Shown: positions 11,172 to 31,094 of the stretch, piece after piece
Numbering within the stretch: the first letter of the stretch is position 1
Layout: each line of letters opens with the position of its first letter
DNA from: Lachnospiraceae bacterium
GTDB taxonomy: Bacteria > Bacillota > Clostridia > Lachnospirales > Lachnospiraceae
Reading direction: 5' to 3'
Assembly: GCA_022781395.1 (NCBI GenBank)
Contig: JALETS010000191.1
Coordinates: forward strand, 1-43,352
DNA length: 43,352 nt
Translations under genes and position numbers: made by a program
The notes under the pieces: generated by a model
Databases searched by the model: none
Told to the model about the DNA's origin: nothing
The model's input: the letters and a program-made list of their open reading frames with translations, nothing else

Positions 11172-11480
11172 TAAAATAAAAAGACCCCGTCCCGTAAAAG
11201 GACGAGGTCAAAATCTCGTGTTACCACCTGTTACGACGTACAAATCACACACTCAGCATACGCTGCCATTCTACAAAAGCGTATTGCAATCTATGTGATT
11301 GATACGGTTCCCGATAACGGCGGAATACCGTCAGTCCCTACTGATTCTCCCACGCGGATAACCCCGGCAGACAGAACGTTCAGTCTGAAACTCAGAAGTG
11401 ATTTTCCCTAATCTTCTACTTGCACCGGTCTTGCACCATCACCGGCTCGCTGTTGCTTTTAAAGATAAGGTACTGTCTTC
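11172..11480 (-). promoter_or_regulatory. T-box leader (Ile specific) upstream of ileS
   Basis: Minus strand contains T-box-like CAGGTGGTAACACGAGA (11214-11231) and terminator GACCTCGTCC-TTTTAC-GGGACGGGGTC + TTTTTATTTT (11183-11209). Candidate specifier ATC (11400-11402) followed by A in the context GGGAAAATCACTTCTGAG. Confidence 0.88.
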
Positions 11481-11510
11481 TTCAATGTTTTTGCTTTTTT
11501 TACTATGCCT

Positions 11511-23595: not shown

Positions 23596-24999
23596 CTATT
23601 TCCATATTCCTTTGCTCTTACGCACATGATAGTATAAGTCATTTTCCATTGCCATTACCTTTTCCAAAGGAATGCTCTTAAAGACTTTCATTTTCATCTT
23701 AAATTTAATCCAAAGAGCCGAATAAAGCCCAAGTACAACGAAGCATCCACTTGTCAATAACCAGATCATAAGCCTCTCATGAGGATCACTGGAAATATTG
23801 AGAATCATATATACCGTTCCCACAATTCCGATAATGGGGAAAATCACTCCACCCGGCACCTTAAAATTTCTGGGTGCCTTCGGAAGCCGTTTCCGAAAAA
23901 CCAGAAGATCCACATGTGCAAGCACATAAGAGATCATCCAGAATACGGAGCCTGCCAGAATGAGGAACGAAATCATATCAGCCGAACTGTCGCTTAAAAA
24001 GCCGAACACAAGGATCGCCGCACTGACAAACACCTGTCCAAACCACGGTACATTGTGTTTGTTTGTCTTAGAGAAAACCTTAGGAAGCATGTTCATCTTA
24101 GCCATTCCCTGACAGATGACAGCCAGCGAATTTACCGTCGAGTTCTGTGTACTGATAACTGCAAGCGCTCCCACTAATGTCATCCATATTTTGCCTGCCG
24201 TTCCAAGCACTGCATATCCATATACAAGATGGGGAGCTGCCGAATTGGCAAGCTCATCCCATTTCACATAATTATGAAAGCCCAGCACCATAACAGACTG
24301 CATGATAAAGATTAAGAACAATCCTATCATCATACCAAGAGGTACATTCCGCTTGGCATTTTTTACTTCTTTTGAAATGGGGATCGCATATTCCGCTCCG
24401 ATAAACAGCCAGAAGGCAACGGCCGTCATAGCCGCGATATTGCCAAAATCAGCATCCAGTACATAGGGCTGGTCCACCTTGACCCCGACACCCATTCCGA
24501 TCATTCCGATAAAACCCATCGCAACAAGCGAGCCCACTAACAAAAATGCTACAATATCCTGTATCTTGGCAAACATATCCACGCCTCGCAGATTCGCCAG
24601 CAGAATAACCACGGTCATCACAAAGGTATATACAAAGCTTGGTATATTAAGCCCCAGTGTATCTGCAAGAGAGAAGGAAAAAATAGATGCTTCCACTCCG
24701 CAGGACATGGTATTGCAGATGATATAGCCTCCCACCATGGATATGAGAGTCGGGAACGGACCAAGCGCTGCCAGCGTATACTGTGCCAAGCCTCCCGTTG
24801 TATTCGGCATCAGTGCATTAAGTTCCGACAGGGATGCCACCGTTGTCATATTGAGAAGCATTGCGATTGCCATTGCCAGTATAAACGTAACGCCAAGCGT
24901 TCCCGCACCCTCTCCCAGTGAAACAAGACAGCTTGTAGCAACCACAAGTCCCACTGAAATTGATACTACATTTCCTAAGCCTAATTTCTTCTCATTCAT
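23596..24999 (-). CDS. APC superfamily amino acid/amine permease
   Basis: 467 aa, multi-TM, GLGNVVSISVGLVVATSCLVSLGEGAG, ALSELNALMPNTTGGLAQYT. Confidence 0.88.
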   Translation of the reverse strand: MNEKKLGLGNVVSISVGLVVATSCLVSLGEGAGTLGVTFILAMAIAMLLNMTTVASLSELNALMPNTTGGLAQYTLAALGPFPTLISMVGGYIICNTMSCGVEASIFSFSLADTLGLNIPSFVYTFVMTVVILLANLRGVDMFAKIQDIVAFLLVGSLVAMGFIGMIGMGVGVKVDQPYVLDADFGNIAAMTAVAFWLFIGAEYAIPISKEVKNAKRNVPLGMMIGLFLIFIMQSVMVLGFHNYVKWDELANSAAPHLVYGYAVLGTAGKIWMTLVGALAVISTQNSTVNSLAVICQGMAKMNMLPKVFSKTNKHNVPWFGQVFVSAAILVFGFLSDSSADMISFLILAGSVFWMISYVLAHVDLLVFRKRLPKAPRNFKVPGGVIFPIIGIVGTVYMILNISSDPHERLMIWLLTSGCFVVLGLYSALWIKFKMKMKVFKSIPLEKVMAMENDLYYHVRKSKGIWK

Positions 25000-25019: not shown

Positions 25020-25367
25020 CTACAGAGCATCTATTCCTTCTTCCCCGGTGCGTACTCTGATCACATTATCGATATCATACACGAAGATCTTGCCATCACC
25101 GATATGCCCCGTATAAAGCTCCTTCTTGATAATATCCAGAATCTTATCGACCTTGCCCGCTTCAACCACAATATTAATCTGCTGCTTCGGCAGCAATTCC
25201 ATTACCTCTTTAAGCTCCACCTCATATTCCTGAGTTCCCATTTCCACGCCACAGCCCAGCACCTGCATGACGGTAACACCTCTCACGCCTACCTTGCTAA
25301 GCTCCTGAATCAGATTGGTAAGCTTCGACATTCCCGTTATCACTTCAATTTTTGATATCTTTCCCAT
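25020..25367 (-). CDS. P-II family nitrogen regulatory protein (divergent)
   Basis: 115 aa; GVRGVTVMQVLGCG, C-terminal signature TGHIGDGKIFVYDIDNVIRVRTGEEG. T-loop sequence is atypical. Confidence 0.88.
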   Translation of the reverse strand: MGKISKIEVITGMSKLTNLIQELSKVGVRGVTVMQVLGCGVEMGTQEYEVELKEVMELLPKQQINIVVEAGKVDKILDIIKKELYTGHIGDGKIFVYDIDNVIRVRTGEEGIDAL

Positions 25368-26169
25368 TTGTTTTTCCTCCCTGTAATCGTTTGTATTGTT
25401 CCAATGTGATCCCCGTATAATTTTTAAATTCCTTCATCATATGCGCTTCATCAAAATAACCACACTCCAAAGCCAGTTCATCATAACGTACATTCCCATT
25501 TCCCAGACTGTCCAAAAGCGTCTGGAATCTGACATACTGTGCAAACTGCTTCGGCGATATGCTATGATAATTCTTGAAAACACGCCTTAAGTAACACGCA
25601 GAATAATTGGTTTCCTCTTCCAGCTCACTCATATTGACCTGTCCCCTGGAACGTGTGATTCTGCTTACCAGATATTCGTTGATCTTCTCCTTATCAGAAA
25701 AAGTGTTCCTGCTGTAGACCAGATTTTCATAAGCCTCCTTGAAGATTCCGCTTCTCTCGTTAATGTCTTTGGCCAGTGCGATTCTTTCGGTCAAATGATC
25801 GCCAAAGATATCTCCGTCGATCTCCACATCATCATTTACCAGCATATCCATGGATAGATCCTTAGGCAGAACTCCCTGCCCCGGCTGAAACCGGACGCCA
25901 AAGCACCAATCCTCATCACCCAGCTCCCATGCCTTGACGCCAAACACAGTTCCGCTTATGTAGGTTGTCGCCTTGCCGCTTCCTATGTTAAAAAGCAGAT
26001 CTATACTGCCATCAGGAACCGCTTTGACCTCATGCGGTCTGTCCTGTCCCAAAGAAAATTCATAGAAGTGCGAAATGCCAAGCTGGGGGCAATTCAGTTT
26101 CTGAAGCTGTTCTACGCCCAGTTCAATATAGGGTTGACGCGGGCTTATAATGGTGCTTTCCTTTTTCAT
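25345..26169 (-). CDS. AraC family transcriptional regulator
   Basis: C-terminal double HTH: NMSELEEETNYSACYLRRVFKNYHSISPKQFAQYVRFQ...LALECGYFDEAHMMKEFKNYTGITLEQY. Confidence 0.9.
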   Translation of the reverse strand: MKKESTIISPRQPYIELGVEQLQKLNCPQLGISHFYEFSLGQDRPHEVKAVPDGSIDLLFNIGSGKATTYISGTVFGVKAWELGDEDWCFGVRFQPGQGVLPKDLSMDMLVNDDVEIDGDIFGDHLTERIALAKDINERSGIFKEAYENLVYSRNTFSDKEKINEYLVSRITRSRGQVNMSELEEETNYSACYLRRVFKNYHSISPKQFAQYVRFQTLLDSLGNGNVRYDELALECGYFDEAHMMKEFKNYTGITLEQYKRLQGGKTNGKDIKN

Positions 26170-26196: not shown

Positions 26197-27330
26197 CTAG
26201 TGCAGTTCGGGTTCCTCCCAAAGCGGAAGCTTCACGCCGATACCAAGCTCCAGTGCTTTCTTATAGACGGTTTCGCCCCATGCAATATCTTCTACAGGCA
26301 TACCACCAACCGAATAAATGATTCTCTGCTTGTCATTGTCTCTTCCCGGCACCTTACCGGTTATCACATCTGCGATGTCAATGATTTCTTCTCTGGTGAT
26401 TTTCTTATCATGTAAAAGATCCATGAACTTACAGCCTACGATCTGCACCGGATCGTAGCTTGGATAGGGATACTCCTCTGCCCATGCCTCATACAATTTA
26501 TAGTTATCTACTACTAATTTGGTATTCTCATCTAAATAAAAGCTTTCGTTAAATCTGGCAGCCGAAGGCATACAGATCAAAGCGCCTTCTTTAATCCATG
26601 CTTCATCAATATACGGGAATAAAGCCTCCTTATCCCCCACACAGGTAGTAGTGCTGATGATATCGCTGTCCTTGATCGCCTCTTCCATAGTCTCACAGAT
26701 TACAATGTTCTTAATCTGCGGATAGTCTGCCTTCACATATTCTACAAAAGAATCAATTCCTTTTTGACTGCGACCCTTGATCTTGATCGTATCAATACCG
26801 GGGCAGACACTCATAAATGCTGCAAGGCTTGTCTTTCCCATAACGCCCGGTCCTACGATAGATACCACTCTGGAATCTTTTCTGGCAAGATATTTGGCTC
26901 CAACACCCGGAATAGCTCCCGTTCTGTATGCGCTCAACAGGTTGGCTGACATCAGTGCAAGCGGTGCTCCCGTATCCTTATCATTCAACATCATCATAAG
27001 AATGGAACGGGGCAGTCCCTTCTGCTTGTTCTCTGTATTGGAACCATACCATTTCATTCCCGCCATCTTAAAGTTGCCGCCTAAGTATGCAGGCATAGCC
27101 ATGAATCTTCTGTCTTCTCCGTTCTTCGGCATTCCTTCAAATTCCGGATTGTCCGGGAAAGTGACCATGCAGCCGTGAGAGTTGTGGTTCTCACCACCCA
27201 TTACATAATCTCCCTTTTTCAGGGTAATCATCATGTCCTCCATGACTTCTACACACTTGCCCATATCCTTGACACCGGCCTTGATCATGTCAGGCTCACT
27301 TAAATATAAAAAATCAATCTTTGCACTCAT
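26197..27330 (-). CDS. Ornithine cyclodeaminase / mu-crystallin family protein
   Basis: GPGVMGKTSLAAFMSVCPGIDTIKIKGRSQKGIDSFV Rossmann motif, LSAYRTGAIPGVGAKYLARKDSRVVSIVG. Start at MSAKIDFLYL with GGAGGAGAACGC RBS. Confidence 0.87.
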   Translation of the reverse strand: MSAKIDFLYLSEPDMIKAGVKDMGKCVEVMEDMMITLKKGDYVMGGENHNSHGCMVTFPDNPEFEGMPKNGEDRRFMAMPAYLGGNFKMAGMKWYGSNTENKQKGLPRSILMMMLNDKDTGAPLALMSANLLSAYRTGAIPGVGAKYLARKDSRVVSIVGPGVMGKTSLAAFMSVCPGIDTIKIKGRSQKGIDSFVEYVKADYPQIKNIVICETMEEAIKDSDIISTTTCVGDKEALFPYIDEAWIKEGALICMPSAARFNESFYLDENTKLVVDNYKLYEAWAEEYPYPSYDPVQIVGCKFMDLLHDKKITREEIIDIADVITGKVPGRDNDKQRIIYSVGGMPVEDIAWGETVYKKALELGIGVKLPLWEEPELH

Positions 27331-27386
27331 GCGTTCTCCTCCGTTTCCATATATACGCACGGCAGAAAAACACAGCACCAAAGTGC

Positions 27387-27424
27387 AAAAAGACGCCAAC
27401 AGCTACTCTGTTGACGTCTTTGTC
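27387..27424 (-). promoter_or_regulatory. Leader hairpin A (terminator-like) upstream of the OCD-family operon
   Basis: Minus strand GACAAAGACGTCAACAGAGTAGCTGTTGGCGTCTTTTTG: long stem plus short U-tract, 57 bp before the ATG. Confidence 0.7.
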
Positions 27425-27523
27425 ATGCATATATATTAGCATATTTGACTTTTACAGTCCATATGTTTCTAAACATATAAATATTTTATTTGTATATCAG
27501 GATTTTACAACTTTTCTGCTGCC

Positions 27524-27547
27524 TTGTATTGTAAAAAGCAATACAAC
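27524..27547. promoter_or_regulatory. Dyad element A (putative operator)
   Basis: Plus strand TTGTATTGTAAAAAGCAATACAAC: perfect 8-bp inverted repeat TTGTATTG...CAATACAA; 21/24 identical to 31071-31094. Confidence 0.65.
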
Positions 27548-27553
27548 TCTTTC

Positions 27554-28714
27554 TTACCTGCACGGTTTAAATCTGTCATACCGCAGCGCACTGATATCGA
27601 CTACTGTTTCTTCTCCCCTTACCATCTGGGATAACATCAGTCCCACTGCCGGTGCGGTCCCGAATCCATGACCGGTAAATCCACATGCCAGGATTAATCC
27701 GGGGGCTTCCTCCACAGGGCTTAAGAAAGGTACGCCGTCAAAAGCTTCATCCAGCCATCCGCACCAGCTTCTTACTACCTTGGCATCCTTCAAAGCCGGT
27801 ATGTATCCCTGAATAGCTCTGCAGCTTGCCGATAATGTCATGGAATTGGTAATAAGCTTAGAGGGATCGGCAAGATTGGTAGAGGGATCCACCATTTCAT
27901 CCACCGTTTCCCAGCCGGAATCCGAACCGAAGACAAAGGAGCCGTGCTTCGTCTGGTGTCCGTAGAAATCTGCCGTTGCGCATCCGAACATCACATCCGT
28001 CATAGGAGGCTGCATCTCTGTCACAAGACATTCATCTATCAATCTTGTCATCGGTACATCAACGCCGATTGTCCGCGCGATCTCTCTGCTTTCATAGCCC
28101 GCCACCAGAATGATCGTCTCTCCTTCAAATACCGTGCCGTCATTTAAGATTACTTTGCGTACTTTTCCCTTTACCTTCTGCAGGCTGTGCACAGGCGCTT
28201 CTGTATAGAACTGCACGCCCATCTCAAGCGCTCTCTTGTAATACCCAAGTGTCGTCGTAAGCGGATTGGCATGACCGTCTGTGGGACACCAGCTTGCACC
28301 AATTACGTCATCAGATAAACAGGGACATATCTCTTTGACCTCTTTCTGATCTATCATTCTGACATCAAGACCTACCGAACCAGCCGACTTGGCAAGTGCC
28401 TCAAGCTTTTTGAGATGCTCAGGAGTTTTACCCATACGAAGATTACCCTTCTGGGTATATTCTGTATCCACTCCCAACTCTTCCGATAAGGTTGGCCACA
28501 GATTCTGTATTCCGTACATCGCATAAGGAAGCTCTCTGATATCCCTGCCGGACTGTCTTACACCGCCGCCGTTTCTGGAGGAACCGCCATGTCCTATACT
28601 GTTTGATGCCTCTAATACAATCACGGATTTTGTTCCGCTTTTTGCCAGATAATAGGCTGCCGCACAACCATTTATACCGCCACCGATAATTACAACGTCT
28701 GCCACCTTACTCAT
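27554..28714 (-). CDS. FAD-dependent amino acid/amine oxidoreductase (DAO family; HcnC/opine oxidase subunit B-like)
   Basis: ADVVIIGGGINGCAAAYYLAKSGTKSVIVLEA dinucleotide fold, GHGGSSRNGGGVRQSGRD, GFTGHGFGTAPAVGLMLSQ. Confidence 0.87.
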   Translation of the reverse strand: MSKVADVVIIGGGINGCAAAYYLAKSGTKSVIVLEASNSIGHGGSSRNGGGVRQSGRDIRELPYAMYGIQNLWPTLSEELGVDTEYTQKGNLRMGKTPEHLKKLEALAKSAGSVGLDVRMIDQKEVKEICPCLSDDVIGASWCPTDGHANPLTTTLGYYKRALEMGVQFYTEAPVHSLQKVKGKVRKVILNDGTVFEGETIILVAGYESREIARTIGVDVPMTRLIDECLVTEMQPPMTDVMFGCATADFYGHQTKHGSFVFGSDSGWETVDEMVDPSTNLADPSKLITNSMTLSASCRAIQGYIPALKDAKVVRSWCGWLDEAFDGVPFLSPVEEAPGLILACGFTGHGFGTAPAVGLMLSQMVRGEETVVDISALRYDRFKPCR

Positions 28715-29039
28715 CACAGCCACCTCCGTCTTCTGCAAGTATGCACATCTCAATCGGCCTCATAGGTGCCCGCGAGCTTGCCGGGACAACCTCTGCCGGA
28801 GATACCTTTAATTCACTTGCGATAATTGCCTTTACCAATTTTCCACAGGTCTGGCCCTGGCACAGTCCCATGCCTGATCTTAAATATCTTCTCATTTCTT
28901 CCAAAGTAAAGATTCCTTCATGAACCGCTTTCCGAATCTGCCCTTTGGTTACCTCTTCACATCTGCAGACTAAGAGGTCATCATCCGGTCCTTCCACGAA
29001 AGGACCTATTTCCTGTAGTTTCGCCTGAATATCAACCAT
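28707..29039 (-). CDS. BFD-like [2Fe-2S] protein
   Basis: VCRCEEVTKGQIRKAVHEGIFTLEEMRRYLRSGMGLCQGQTCGKLV: CxC...CxxxxC cysteine pattern. Confidence 0.88.
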   Translation of the reverse strand: MVDIQAKLQEIGPFVEGPDDDLLVCRCEEVTKGQIRKAVHEGIFTLEEMRRYLRSGMGLCQGQTCGKLVKAIIASELKVSPAEVVPASSRAPMRPIEMCILAEDGGGCDE

Positions 29040-29050
29040 AATCTAACCTC

Positions 29051-30631
29051 CTAAGCTTCTTTCTTATAGAATCGTGCTTTCATTACCATATCATTCGGAA
29101 CCTTTATCGTAAGCAGATAGGTATGATCAAATACCGGTGCTGTTCTGACCCTGGTCACTTCCGCATCACATACATACTGTCCGTTTCTTCCCAAAGCAAT
29201 GCCCTTATCTCCCACTTCCGGAACCGGCAGGAATTCATACGGCATCGTTACTTCGCCATATCCATCTTCCACATCCTCTTCTACCAGGAAAATTGATTGT
29301 CCTGAACAGGATGCCACACACATACCACAGCCCACACATTTCTTCTCCGGATCAATAGCCGGAAGCGATGTAATTTTCTCTCCGATCCGTATGCAGCCCA
29401 CCTTGCAGGCATCCTGACAGGGATTGCAGGGAATATTCTGGGTACATTCGATCACAGGATGTATTCCTTTCTGTCTGGTCACTCCGGGGAATCTTTCTAT
29501 TTCATCATCTGCCACAAAGCCTTTGTTCAGAAGATTCATGGAAACCTCGATACCCTCATCTGTTTTTTCCACAAGCTTTCCTCTGTTCTTCGGTGCAAAC
29601 ATACCCTGTCTTAATGTATCAAGCTGCTTCTCCAGCTCATCGATTCTTGCATCTCTTTCTTTCTCTGTTATATATCCCAGATAACATGCGATAGCGGCAC
29701 CGGACATCCTGCCCTCTATCATAGCTGAGCTTGCTTCTTCGATTCCCGATACATCTCCTGCCGCATAGATGCCCGGAACACTGGTAGCTCCATATTGATC
29801 ACACTCCGGCACATGTCCGCCCTTGGTATCGTTCATCTTAACTTCTGCCTGTTTTAACAGCTGTGACATCGGCGACAGACCGACTGCAAGACATACCGTG
29901 TCGACATCAAAATGCTTCTCTGTTCCCGGGATTACCTTCCAGTCCGACCCGACTTGTCCGATCACGACTCCGGTGACATAATCATCGCCCTCTACCCGCA
30001 CTATGGTATGGGATAAGTAAAAAGGAACGCCGCATCTGGCTATCTTGGCTGCGTGGACTCCATAGCCACCTACCCTGGGAGCCGCATCTGCAAGCGCCAC
30101 CACCTCACAGCCTGCCTGCATCAGCTGATAGCTGACAACAAGCCCGACATTTCCGGAGCCAAGCATCAGGATTCTGTTACCCGGTTTGATATGATGCAGA
30201 TTCATCATGGTCTGAGCAGCGCCGGCACCGATCACACCGGGCTTGGTCCAGCCCTCGAAATTAACCATATTCTCACTTGCACCGGTGGCAACCAGTACTG
30301 CGTCACCTTTATAATGTCTTACTTCCTCACCAACCTTAACTGTCACTTCTTTTTGGGGATACAGACCAACCACGGTAGCATTTAAAACAACCTCAACACC
30401 GTACTCTTCTGCTTCTGCAAGCAGTTCCTCTCCAATCTTAAATCCTCTGACCTTTGCCTTATGTTCTTTGGAGCCAAAGAATTTATGGATCTGTTTAAAA
30501 AGCTGTCCTCCCGGCTTTGCATTTTCATCAAAAACGACTGGTTTTAATCCTTTTTTGGCAGCTTCGATTGCTGCAGATAAACCGGCCGGGCCGGCACCAA
30601 TTACTATCATGTCATAACGTTCTATCTTCAT
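29051..30631 (-). CDS. FAD/NAD(P)-dependent oxidoreductase with two C-terminal 4Fe-4S motifs (HcnB/opine oxidase subunit A-like)
   Basis: YDMIVIGAGPAGLSAAIEAAKKGLKPVVFDE, second GSGNVGLVVSYQLMQAG, CVGCGMCVASC ferredoxin motif, CNPCQDAC. Confidence 0.88.
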   Translation of the reverse strand: MKIERYDMIVIGAGPAGLSAAIEAAKKGLKPVVFDENAKPGGQLFKQIHKFFGSKEHKAKVRGFKIGEELLAEAEEYGVEVVLNATVVGLYPQKEVTVKVGEEVRHYKGDAVLVATGASENMVNFEGWTKPGVIGAGAAQTMMNLHHIKPGNRILMLGSGNVGLVVSYQLMQAGCEVVALADAAPRVGGYGVHAAKIARCGVPFYLSHTIVRVEGDDYVTGVVIGQVGSDWKVIPGTEKHFDVDTVCLAVGLSPMSQLLKQAEVKMNDTKGGHVPECDQYGATSVPGIYAAGDVSGIEEASSAMIEGRMSGAAIACYLGYITEKERDARIDELEKQLDTLRQGMFAPKNRGKLVEKTDEGIEVSMNLLNKGFVADDEIERFPGVTRQKGIHPVIECTQNIPCNPCQDACKVGCIRIGEKITSLPAIDPEKKCVGCGMCVASCSGQSIFLVEEDVEDGYGEVTMPYEFLPVPEVGDKGIALGRNGQYVCDAEVTRVRTAPVFDHTYLLTIKVPNDMVMKARFYKKEA

Positions 30632-30654
30632 AATCTCTTTCTCCAATCATTGTT

Positions 30655-30972
30655 TTATTCTTGCGGTGCTGCCGATACTCCATACTGCGTCTGGACAACC
30701 ATACCCGCCTCAAGCGGTGTAATACAGGTTCTGATATTCGGCTTACCGTCCACGATCATGACACAATCGGTACATCTTCCGATGGCACAGAAGACGCCTC
30801 GCGGCTCATGGGTTTTGGCAGTATATCGATGCGCCATAACGCCTGCCGCCTTAAGCGCTGTAGCGATTGGCTCTCCCTCATATCCTTCCAGAATCTTGCC
30901 ATCATAACTAAAGGTTACTTTCTTTCTCTTAGGTGTCTCTCCTAATATTGGGTGATTTTCAATTCGCTCCAT
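30655..30972 (-). CDS. [2Fe-2S] protein (HcnA-like small subunit)
   Basis: FCAIGRCTDCVMIVDGKPNIRTCITPLE: CxxxxCxxC...C plant-type 2Fe-2S loop; 105 aa. Confidence 0.87.
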   Translation of the reverse strand: MERIENHPILGETPKRKKVTFSYDGKILEGYEGEPIATALKAAGVMAHRYTAKTHEPRGVFCAIGRCTDCVMIVDGKPNIRTCITPLEAGMVVQTQYGVSAAPQE

Positions 30973-30990
30973 ATGCTCATCCTCCTAACC

Positions 30991-31029
30991 AAAAAAAGCG
31001 CCAACGACCATGTCGCTGACGCCTTTGTC
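30991..31029 (-). promoter_or_regulatory. Leader hairpin B (terminator-like) directly before the RBS of the four-subunit oxidoreductase operon
   Basis: Minus strand GACAAAGGCGTCAGCGACATGGTCGTTGGCGCTTTTTTTGGTTAGGAGG: about 15 bp stem, U7 tract, RBS immediately after. Confidence 0.75.
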
Positions 31030-31070
31030 TAACTCATTTACTGATTAGACTTTACCATTATGCTTCTGTT

Positions 31071-31094
31071 TCGTATTGTAAAAATCGATACAAC
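31071..31094. promoter_or_regulatory. Dyad element B (putative operator)
   Basis: Plus strand TCGTATTGTAAAAATCGATACAAC; 21/24 identical to 27524-27547. Confidence 0.65.

Follow-up and report, generated by a model that had tools for sequence, protein, structure and literature searches.

Leader RNAs controlled by ANTAR-domain antitermination proteins, such as those of Enterococcus eutP/eutG/eutS/eutA, Klebsiella nasF and Pseudomonas amiE, carry two hexaloop hairpins, P1 and P2. Antitermination by a glnA-linked ANTAR protein (NitR/GlnR) is also known from solventogenic clostridia. The published signature of P2 comprises a hexaloop with A at position 1 and G at position 4, a 3-bp stem and an overlap with the terminator (PMC3369931; PMC8934654). 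Structural work on EutV has each ANTAR dimer in contact with a single hexaloop at any one time, and a role in recruitment has been proposed for the other hairpin (PMC8934654). Here we describe a related element in a 43,352-nucleotide stretch of a Lachnospiraceae genome (contig JALETS010000191.1; hereafter the window), where a hairpin precedes each of the two units of an oxidoreductase/OCD locus. We consider it quite probable that these hairpins are attenuators under the control of a glnA-linked ANTAR antitermination protein, and that an AraC-family regulator separately activates initiation.

The element shares with the dual-hexaloop leaders the A1/G4 hexaloop, a closing stem of at least 3 bp and the overlap with a terminator, but it has a single hexaloop (P2) close to the predicted RNA 5' end and no P1. 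Like the EutV, NasR and AmiR systems, it is linked to nitrogen metabolism and to a protein that combines a receiver-like fold, a coiled coil and an ANTAR domain, although this protein has no recognised Pfam receiver domain. As in the NitR/GlnR system, the ANTAR gene lies immediately downstream of glnA; here, however, the target is read as a single-hexaloop RNA and extended to asnB, pyrG, purF, glnN, gltB, amt, P-II, nifH and an amine operon. The BglG/LicT ribonucleic antiterminators (RAT) likewise rely on a protein-stabilised hairpin that overlaps a terminator, but they span about 30 nt with internal loops, whereas the hexaloop hairpin spans 12-14 nt and the locus has no PRD/CAT gene. By its sequence features, the element is best named a single-hexaloop variant predicted to work in the manner of ANTAR leaders; it is no canonical member of that class. 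It is not described in the open-access papers on NitR/ANTAR in Lachnospiraceae, which is weak evidence of novelty as most subscription journals lay outside the search.

Two mutually exclusive folds in each leader

The hairpins and their alternative forms are as follows.

27387-27424, minus strand: hairpin A, before the OCD gene, the first gene of unit A
27387-27421, minus strand: terminator form of hairpin A with U-tract (folding, covariation)
27412-27425, minus strand: predicted antiterminator form of hairpin A, mini-hairpin TGAC<AAAGAC>GTCA (covariation, folding)
30991-31029, minus strand: hairpin B, before the 2Fe-2S gene, the first gene of unit B
30991-31026, minus strand: terminator form of hairpin B, a 15-bp stem and U-tract, about 10 nt before the Shine-Dalgarno sequence
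31018-31029, minus strand: predicted antiterminator form of hairpin B, mini-hairpin GAC<AAAGGC>GTC with an ANTAR-type hexaloop (covariation in 63 leaders)

Hairpins A and B are strong intrinsic terminators. Hairpin A (27386-27426) folds at -20.0 kcal/mol (z -5.5) and hairpin B (30991-31031) at -21.2 kcal/mol (z -6.5), with no shuffled sequence equally stable in either case. The degenerate pattern GACAAAGRYGYC-N10..25-GGCRYYTTTTT has exactly two sites in the 2.69-Mb draft genome, and these are hairpins A and B. The minus-strand sequence and the folding scores bear out the positions and description given in an earlier note on this DNA. Its remark that the inner stems of A and B differ yet remain paired also holds, as does its point that the U-tract of B ends about 10 nt ahead of the ribosome-binding site, so that a promoter cannot fit between them. 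That note had recognised no known riboswitch class, in agreement with our Rfam scan: the covariance models gave no match at gathering thresholds and just sub-threshold chance matches at E<=1, and a known riboswitch or Rfam leader family was accordingly rejected.

The 5' arm of the terminator holds the loop A-A-N-G-N-N in nearly every leader, closed by a short stem of mostly 3-5 bp. Across 63 aligned leaders, the terminator helix has 205 double-change cells against 63.8 in shuffled alignments (0 of 500 shuffles), and the mini-hairpin helix has 31 against 9.8 (0 of 500 shuffles). These shuffle controls leave kinship among the sequences in; the same exchanges also appear when leaders of different genes, or paralogous leaders within one genome, are compared. 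The 5' strand of the mini-hairpin sits just outside the terminator stem, and termination therefore does not explain its covariation. Stem variants include GAC/GTC, GGC/GCC, AGC/GCT, GAAC/GTTC and AAAC/GTTT. The two folds share bases, are mutually exclusive and both covary. On its own, mini-hairpin B has a folding energy of -2.2 kcal/mol; as such mini-hairpins reach -2 to -3 kcal/mol and the terminators about -20, a protein would be needed to hold the mini-hairpin.

We compared the element with criteria for ANTAR target RNAs drawn from PMC3369931, PMC8164766 and PMC8934654. A1 and G4 of the hexaloop are present in all 63 leaders, a count to which the collection of elements contributed by favouring these letters. 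The closing stem has at least 3 bp, with 88.5% of cells paired (slid-partner controls reach at most 54%) and one mismatch in some unit-B members, and the hairpin overlaps the 5' arm of an intrinsic terminator, as P2 does.

Orthologous leaders were collected from 80 loci encoding OCD relatives and from family-wide searches. Most Lachnospiraceae have the hairpin ahead of both the OCD and the Fer2 gene, invariably in sense direction. It stays with the downstream gene as the upstream gene changes, both in OCD-headed operons (L007, L055, L059, L062, L065 and L075) and in Fer2-headed units, and it is also present where a split operon puts another gene upstream. The operons of the Coriobacteria loci L064, L067 and L070 lack the hairpin. 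The earlier note had named an Rfam match, or a lack of homologous copies before related operons, as grounds against its reading; no Rfam family matched, and many such copies were found.

In the OCD leader of the window, positions 27424-27436 are complementary to positions 27349-27361 (minus strand). In 10 of 28 OCD leaders (p<=0.05), the stretch that runs from the -10/+1 region up to the mini-hairpin is matched by a complementary copy 3' of the terminator, directly ahead of the ribosome-binding site; Fer2 and glnA leaders show none. The letters of these copies vary by species and the complementarity is kept (including in L053, L051, L034, L035, L040, L046 and L061). A long-range stem enclosing the hairpin, or a stem protecting the 5' end, is possible.

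The nitrogen regulon and the ANTAR protein

Further sites of the element in the same genome precede glnA and pyrG. In the glnA leader, AGAAC<AAAGGC>GTTCT overlaps a terminator, and the start of the leader's predicted promoter, TTGACA-18-TATTCT, would fall at the mini-hairpin. R1, a covariance model built from the terminator form, has matches in 58 of 60 genomes of the family. Most of the 69 R1 places inspected precede glnA, glnN (GSIII), gltB, asnB, amt, P-II, pyrG, purF or nifH, and genes for an amino acid ABC transporter and LL-diaminopimelate aminotransferase are also among them; the identities of the downstream genes were checked for a sample. In other families of Clostridia, the same element stands before amt, P-II, gltB and GSIII. 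Judged by the genes that follow it, the element marks a putative nitrogen/glutamine regulon across Lachnospiraceae and other Clostridia.

R1 matches in L182, L178, L212 and L226 precede a protein family starting '...LLARYGVKFGIYKN...', which has no NCBIfam match at 1e-40 and which we take to be possibly a circularly permuted ATP-grasp protein. In some Clostridia leaders (L220, L223 and L233), a single gene is preceded by two complete hexaloop-terminator units arranged in tandem.

The genome encodes exactly one ANTAR domain, in a 182-residue protein whose gene lies directly downstream of glnA, and an ANTAR gene occupies the same place in 29 of 30 glnA loci of the family. A profile of the glnA-linked ANTAR proteins matches the EutV, Rv1626, NasR and AmiR structures in the PDB. 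RNA-bound EutV is among the best structural matches of an AlphaFold2 model of the protein (pLDDT 90). By a hand mapping from the alignment, the protein keeps K149 and E160 of EutV, which hold G4, and the loop-plug residue M172; in place of Y164 it has a His that is nearly invariant. An ANTAR gene is found in 26 of 29 genomes with the OCD operon or its OCD gene; the other three are the Coriobacteria whose operons lack the hairpin. Among 196 Clostridia genomes, R1 matches at E<=1e-3 occur in 42 of 99 with an ANTAR gene and in 16 of 97 without one (p=5.5e-5). The constancy of the downstream gene, the two exclusive covarying folds, the nitrogen regulon and the ANTAR gene beside glnA together largely support the earlier proposal of a protein-controlled antiterminator or regulated attenuator in the leader, as opposed to an end-of-operon terminator. 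That proposal had named neither the class of protein nor the regulon, and the mini-hairpins and the copies before glnA and pyrG were new to it.

Predicted promoters, the AraC-family regulator and the genes of the locus

Both leaders contain a further shared block, GTATYGNTTTTTACAATAC, 43-102 nt 5' of the hairpins (27526-27544 and 31073-31091), which was absent from the earlier note. The sites upstream of the hairpins are as follows.

31073-31091, minus strand: 19-mer of unit B, GTATCGATTTTTACAATAC, a probable AraC-type activator site overlapping the -35 region
31049-31057, minus strand: predicted extended -10 of unit B, TGG-TAAAGT, 18 nt after the 19-mer, with a start predicted near 31042
27526-27544, minus strand: 19-mer of unit A, GTATTGCTTTTTACAATAC, a probable AraC-type activator site
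27502-27507, minus strand: predicted -10 of unit A, TAAAAT, at the 18-nt offset, with a start predicted near 27495
27433-27461, minus strand: second, hairpin-proximal promoter-like site of unit A, TGGACT-17-TAATAT, with a start predicted at about 27426, at the mini-hairpin

The genome contains two copies of the 19-mer at up to one mismatch and one further site at two mismatches. The 19-mer, GTATCGTTTTTTACAATAC, is near-invariant across 39 distinct contexts (26 identical, core invariant), and TANNNT follows exactly 18 nt after it in 92% of them, with a preceding TGn in 56%. It occurs in 28 of 30 operons with an AraC gene and in none of 9 without one (Fisher p 2.6e-7). Given the fixed spacing to the -10 and the co-occurrence with the AraC gene, the 19-mer is probably an AraC activator site overlapping the -35 region. 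Sites of the AraC/XylS family similarly overlap the -35 region at a fixed distance from the -10, with the regulator gene in the operon; they usually consist of a pair of degenerate direct repeats, whereas the 19-mer, whose binding is predicted, is near-invariant. The hairpin is kept in operons that have neither the AraC gene nor the 19-mer (L007, L013, L059, L065 and L075) and would thus be under separate control.

Other readings of this region were set aside. As an RNA hairpin, the commonest form of the 19-mer (GTATCG...CAATAC) would have a C-A mismatch, making a DNA site likelier. A sigma-54 promoter within TTGGCGTCTTTTTGCA was rejected by reading, as the GG-GC spacing is 9 and not 10 nt in unit A and the GC is missing in unit B. 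An invertible promoter between inverted repeats is unsupported: the repeats are short, imperfect and variable between species.

The layout of the second promoter-like site of unit A recurs in family-wide matches. Hexamers resembling a -10 cluster 17-24 nt ahead of the loop: 37 of the 63 leaders have one there, compared with about 10 in control windows, and 29 of the 37 also have a -35. The mini-hairpin therefore lies near the predicted 5' end of the RNA, often with no room for P1.

The locus encodes the following genes.

30655-30972, minus strand: 2Fe-2S (Fer2_4) subunit, first gene of unit B (Pfam PF13510)
29051-30634, minus strand: FAD/NAD(P) oxidoreductase subunit, sarcosine-oxidase-alpha-like (profile searches)
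28707-29039, minus strand: BFD-like 2Fe-2S subunit (profile search)
27554-28720, minus strand: DAO-family FAD oxidoreductase, sarcosine-oxidase-beta-like (profile searches)
26197-27330, minus strand: OCD-family dehydrogenase, first gene of unit A (NCBIfam NF004848, score 590 against a cut-off of 362)
25345-26169, minus strand: AraC-family regulator (PF12833/PF00165)
25020-25367, minus strand: P-II nitrogen regulatory protein (PF00543)
23596-24999, minus strand: APC-family amino acid permease (PF13520/PF00324)

A SpoVT gene comes after the permease of unit A. The unit B proteins resemble parts of sarcosine-oxidase-like dehydrogenases. NCBIfam titles NF004848 'tyramine oxidase subunit B'; the gene context, with 2Fe-2S, FAD and DAO subunits, AraC, P-II and a permease, instead suggests an anaerobic dehydrogenase for an amine or a secondary amino acid. 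By family membership alone, the substrate of the operon is likely an amine, opine or secondary amino acid. Elsewhere in the window, a T-box leader (RF00230, 94.9 bits) is found at 11195-11494 on the minus strand.

Proposed control by two signals and its alternatives

We propose that the leader RNA would by default fold into the terminator and halt polymerase ahead of the first gene. When nitrogen (glutamine) runs short, binding of the A-A-N-G-N-N hexaloop by the ANTAR protein would block the terminator and allow the operon to be read. Transcription itself would be started by the AraC-family protein, with its inducer, on the 19-mer beside the extended -10. Expression may hence need two signals, probably the operon's own substrate at initiation (AraC) and nitrogen shortage at elongation (ANTAR). 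In this scheme we infer that the proteins bind, what the signal is, where the promoters and transcript starts lie and what the enzymes act on.

Several results weigh against this proposal. The invariance of A1 and G4 arises partly by construction, and G1 exceptions exist in the OCD leader of L063 and the Fer2 leader of L032. Several unit-B leaders are mismatched at the second stem pair, and 10 of 63 cells are unpaired. R142, K143, K147, R175 and R177 of EutV are not conserved in the ANTAR protein. The correlation with ANTAR presence is moderate, and a few genomes without the gene have good R1 matches. An upstream P1, defined as a second hexaloop hairpin with a linker of 2-25 nt, occurs at shuffled level both in OCD/Fer2 leaders (3 of 66 against 3.0) and in regulon leaders (8 of 63 against 6.7). 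EutV antitermination requires both hexaloops, though EutV binds single ones (PMC8934654).

The absence of P1 bears on two of the rival explanations. The leaders could be canonical dual-hexaloop targets in which P1 was overlooked as degenerate or in which transcription starts further upstream. The need of EutV for both P1 and P2 (PMC3369931, PMC8934654) speaks for this, as do the length of the unit A leader, about 70 nt if the 19-mer-linked promoter is used, and a good P1, AAGC<AATGGC>GCTT, in L234 of another Clostridia family. We nevertheless regard it as unlikely, given the shuffled level of P1-like hairpins and a predicted start that leaves at most about 13 nt before the mini-hairpin in unit B and glnA. 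A missing P1 would also fit an attenuator of the same regulon that is sensed by something other than an ANTAR protein, be it another RNA-binding protein, a P-II dependent factor or a directly bound small molecule. The P-II gene inside the operon and the R1 matches in some genomes without a detectable ANTAR gene point the same way. However, the hexaloop, the length of the stem and the overlap with the terminator all match ANTAR P2 hairpins, the only ANTAR gene sits beside a glnA that itself carries the element, and no known type of riboswitch aptamer is as short as the recognition part of 12-14 nt; we judge such a sensor improbable.

Least credible to us is that the hairpins are ordinary unregulated terminators with partial read-through, B ending the ddl transcript and A the DAO transcript. 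The strong stems with U-tracts would suit that role, and so would their positions, 76 nt past the ddl stop codon for B and about 130 nt past the DAO stop codon for A. Yet across genomes the element tracks the downstream and not the upstream gene, covariation links the stretch lying 5' of the terminator to the 5' arm of the terminator itself, the promoter-like -10 lies just upstream in those 37 of 63 regulon members, far above the control windows, and the regulon is strongly biased to nitrogen genes.

Control by the glnA-linked ANTAR protein may extend well beyond this locus. We lean slightly towards a genome-wide nitrogen/glutamine regulon in Clostridia, above all in Lachnospiraceae, that works through ANTAR on a single hexaloop at the RNA 5' end, without a recruitment hairpin. 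Amine and amino-acid catabolic operons would have joined it behind an AraC gate, and it would include genes of glutamine-consuming nucleotide and asparagine synthesis. As EutV binds single hexaloops and needs both for antitermination, the regulon is a natural test of whether P1 is dispensable; if the proposal is true, recruitment by P1 would be dispensable when the antiterminator hairpin is the first RNA made by polymerase. With the element, nitrogen control in the Lachnospiraceae, dominant bacteria of gut and rumen, would also gain a readable definition, and an uncharacterised oxidoreductase/OCD operon would be tied to nitrogen shortage and a specific AraC inducer.

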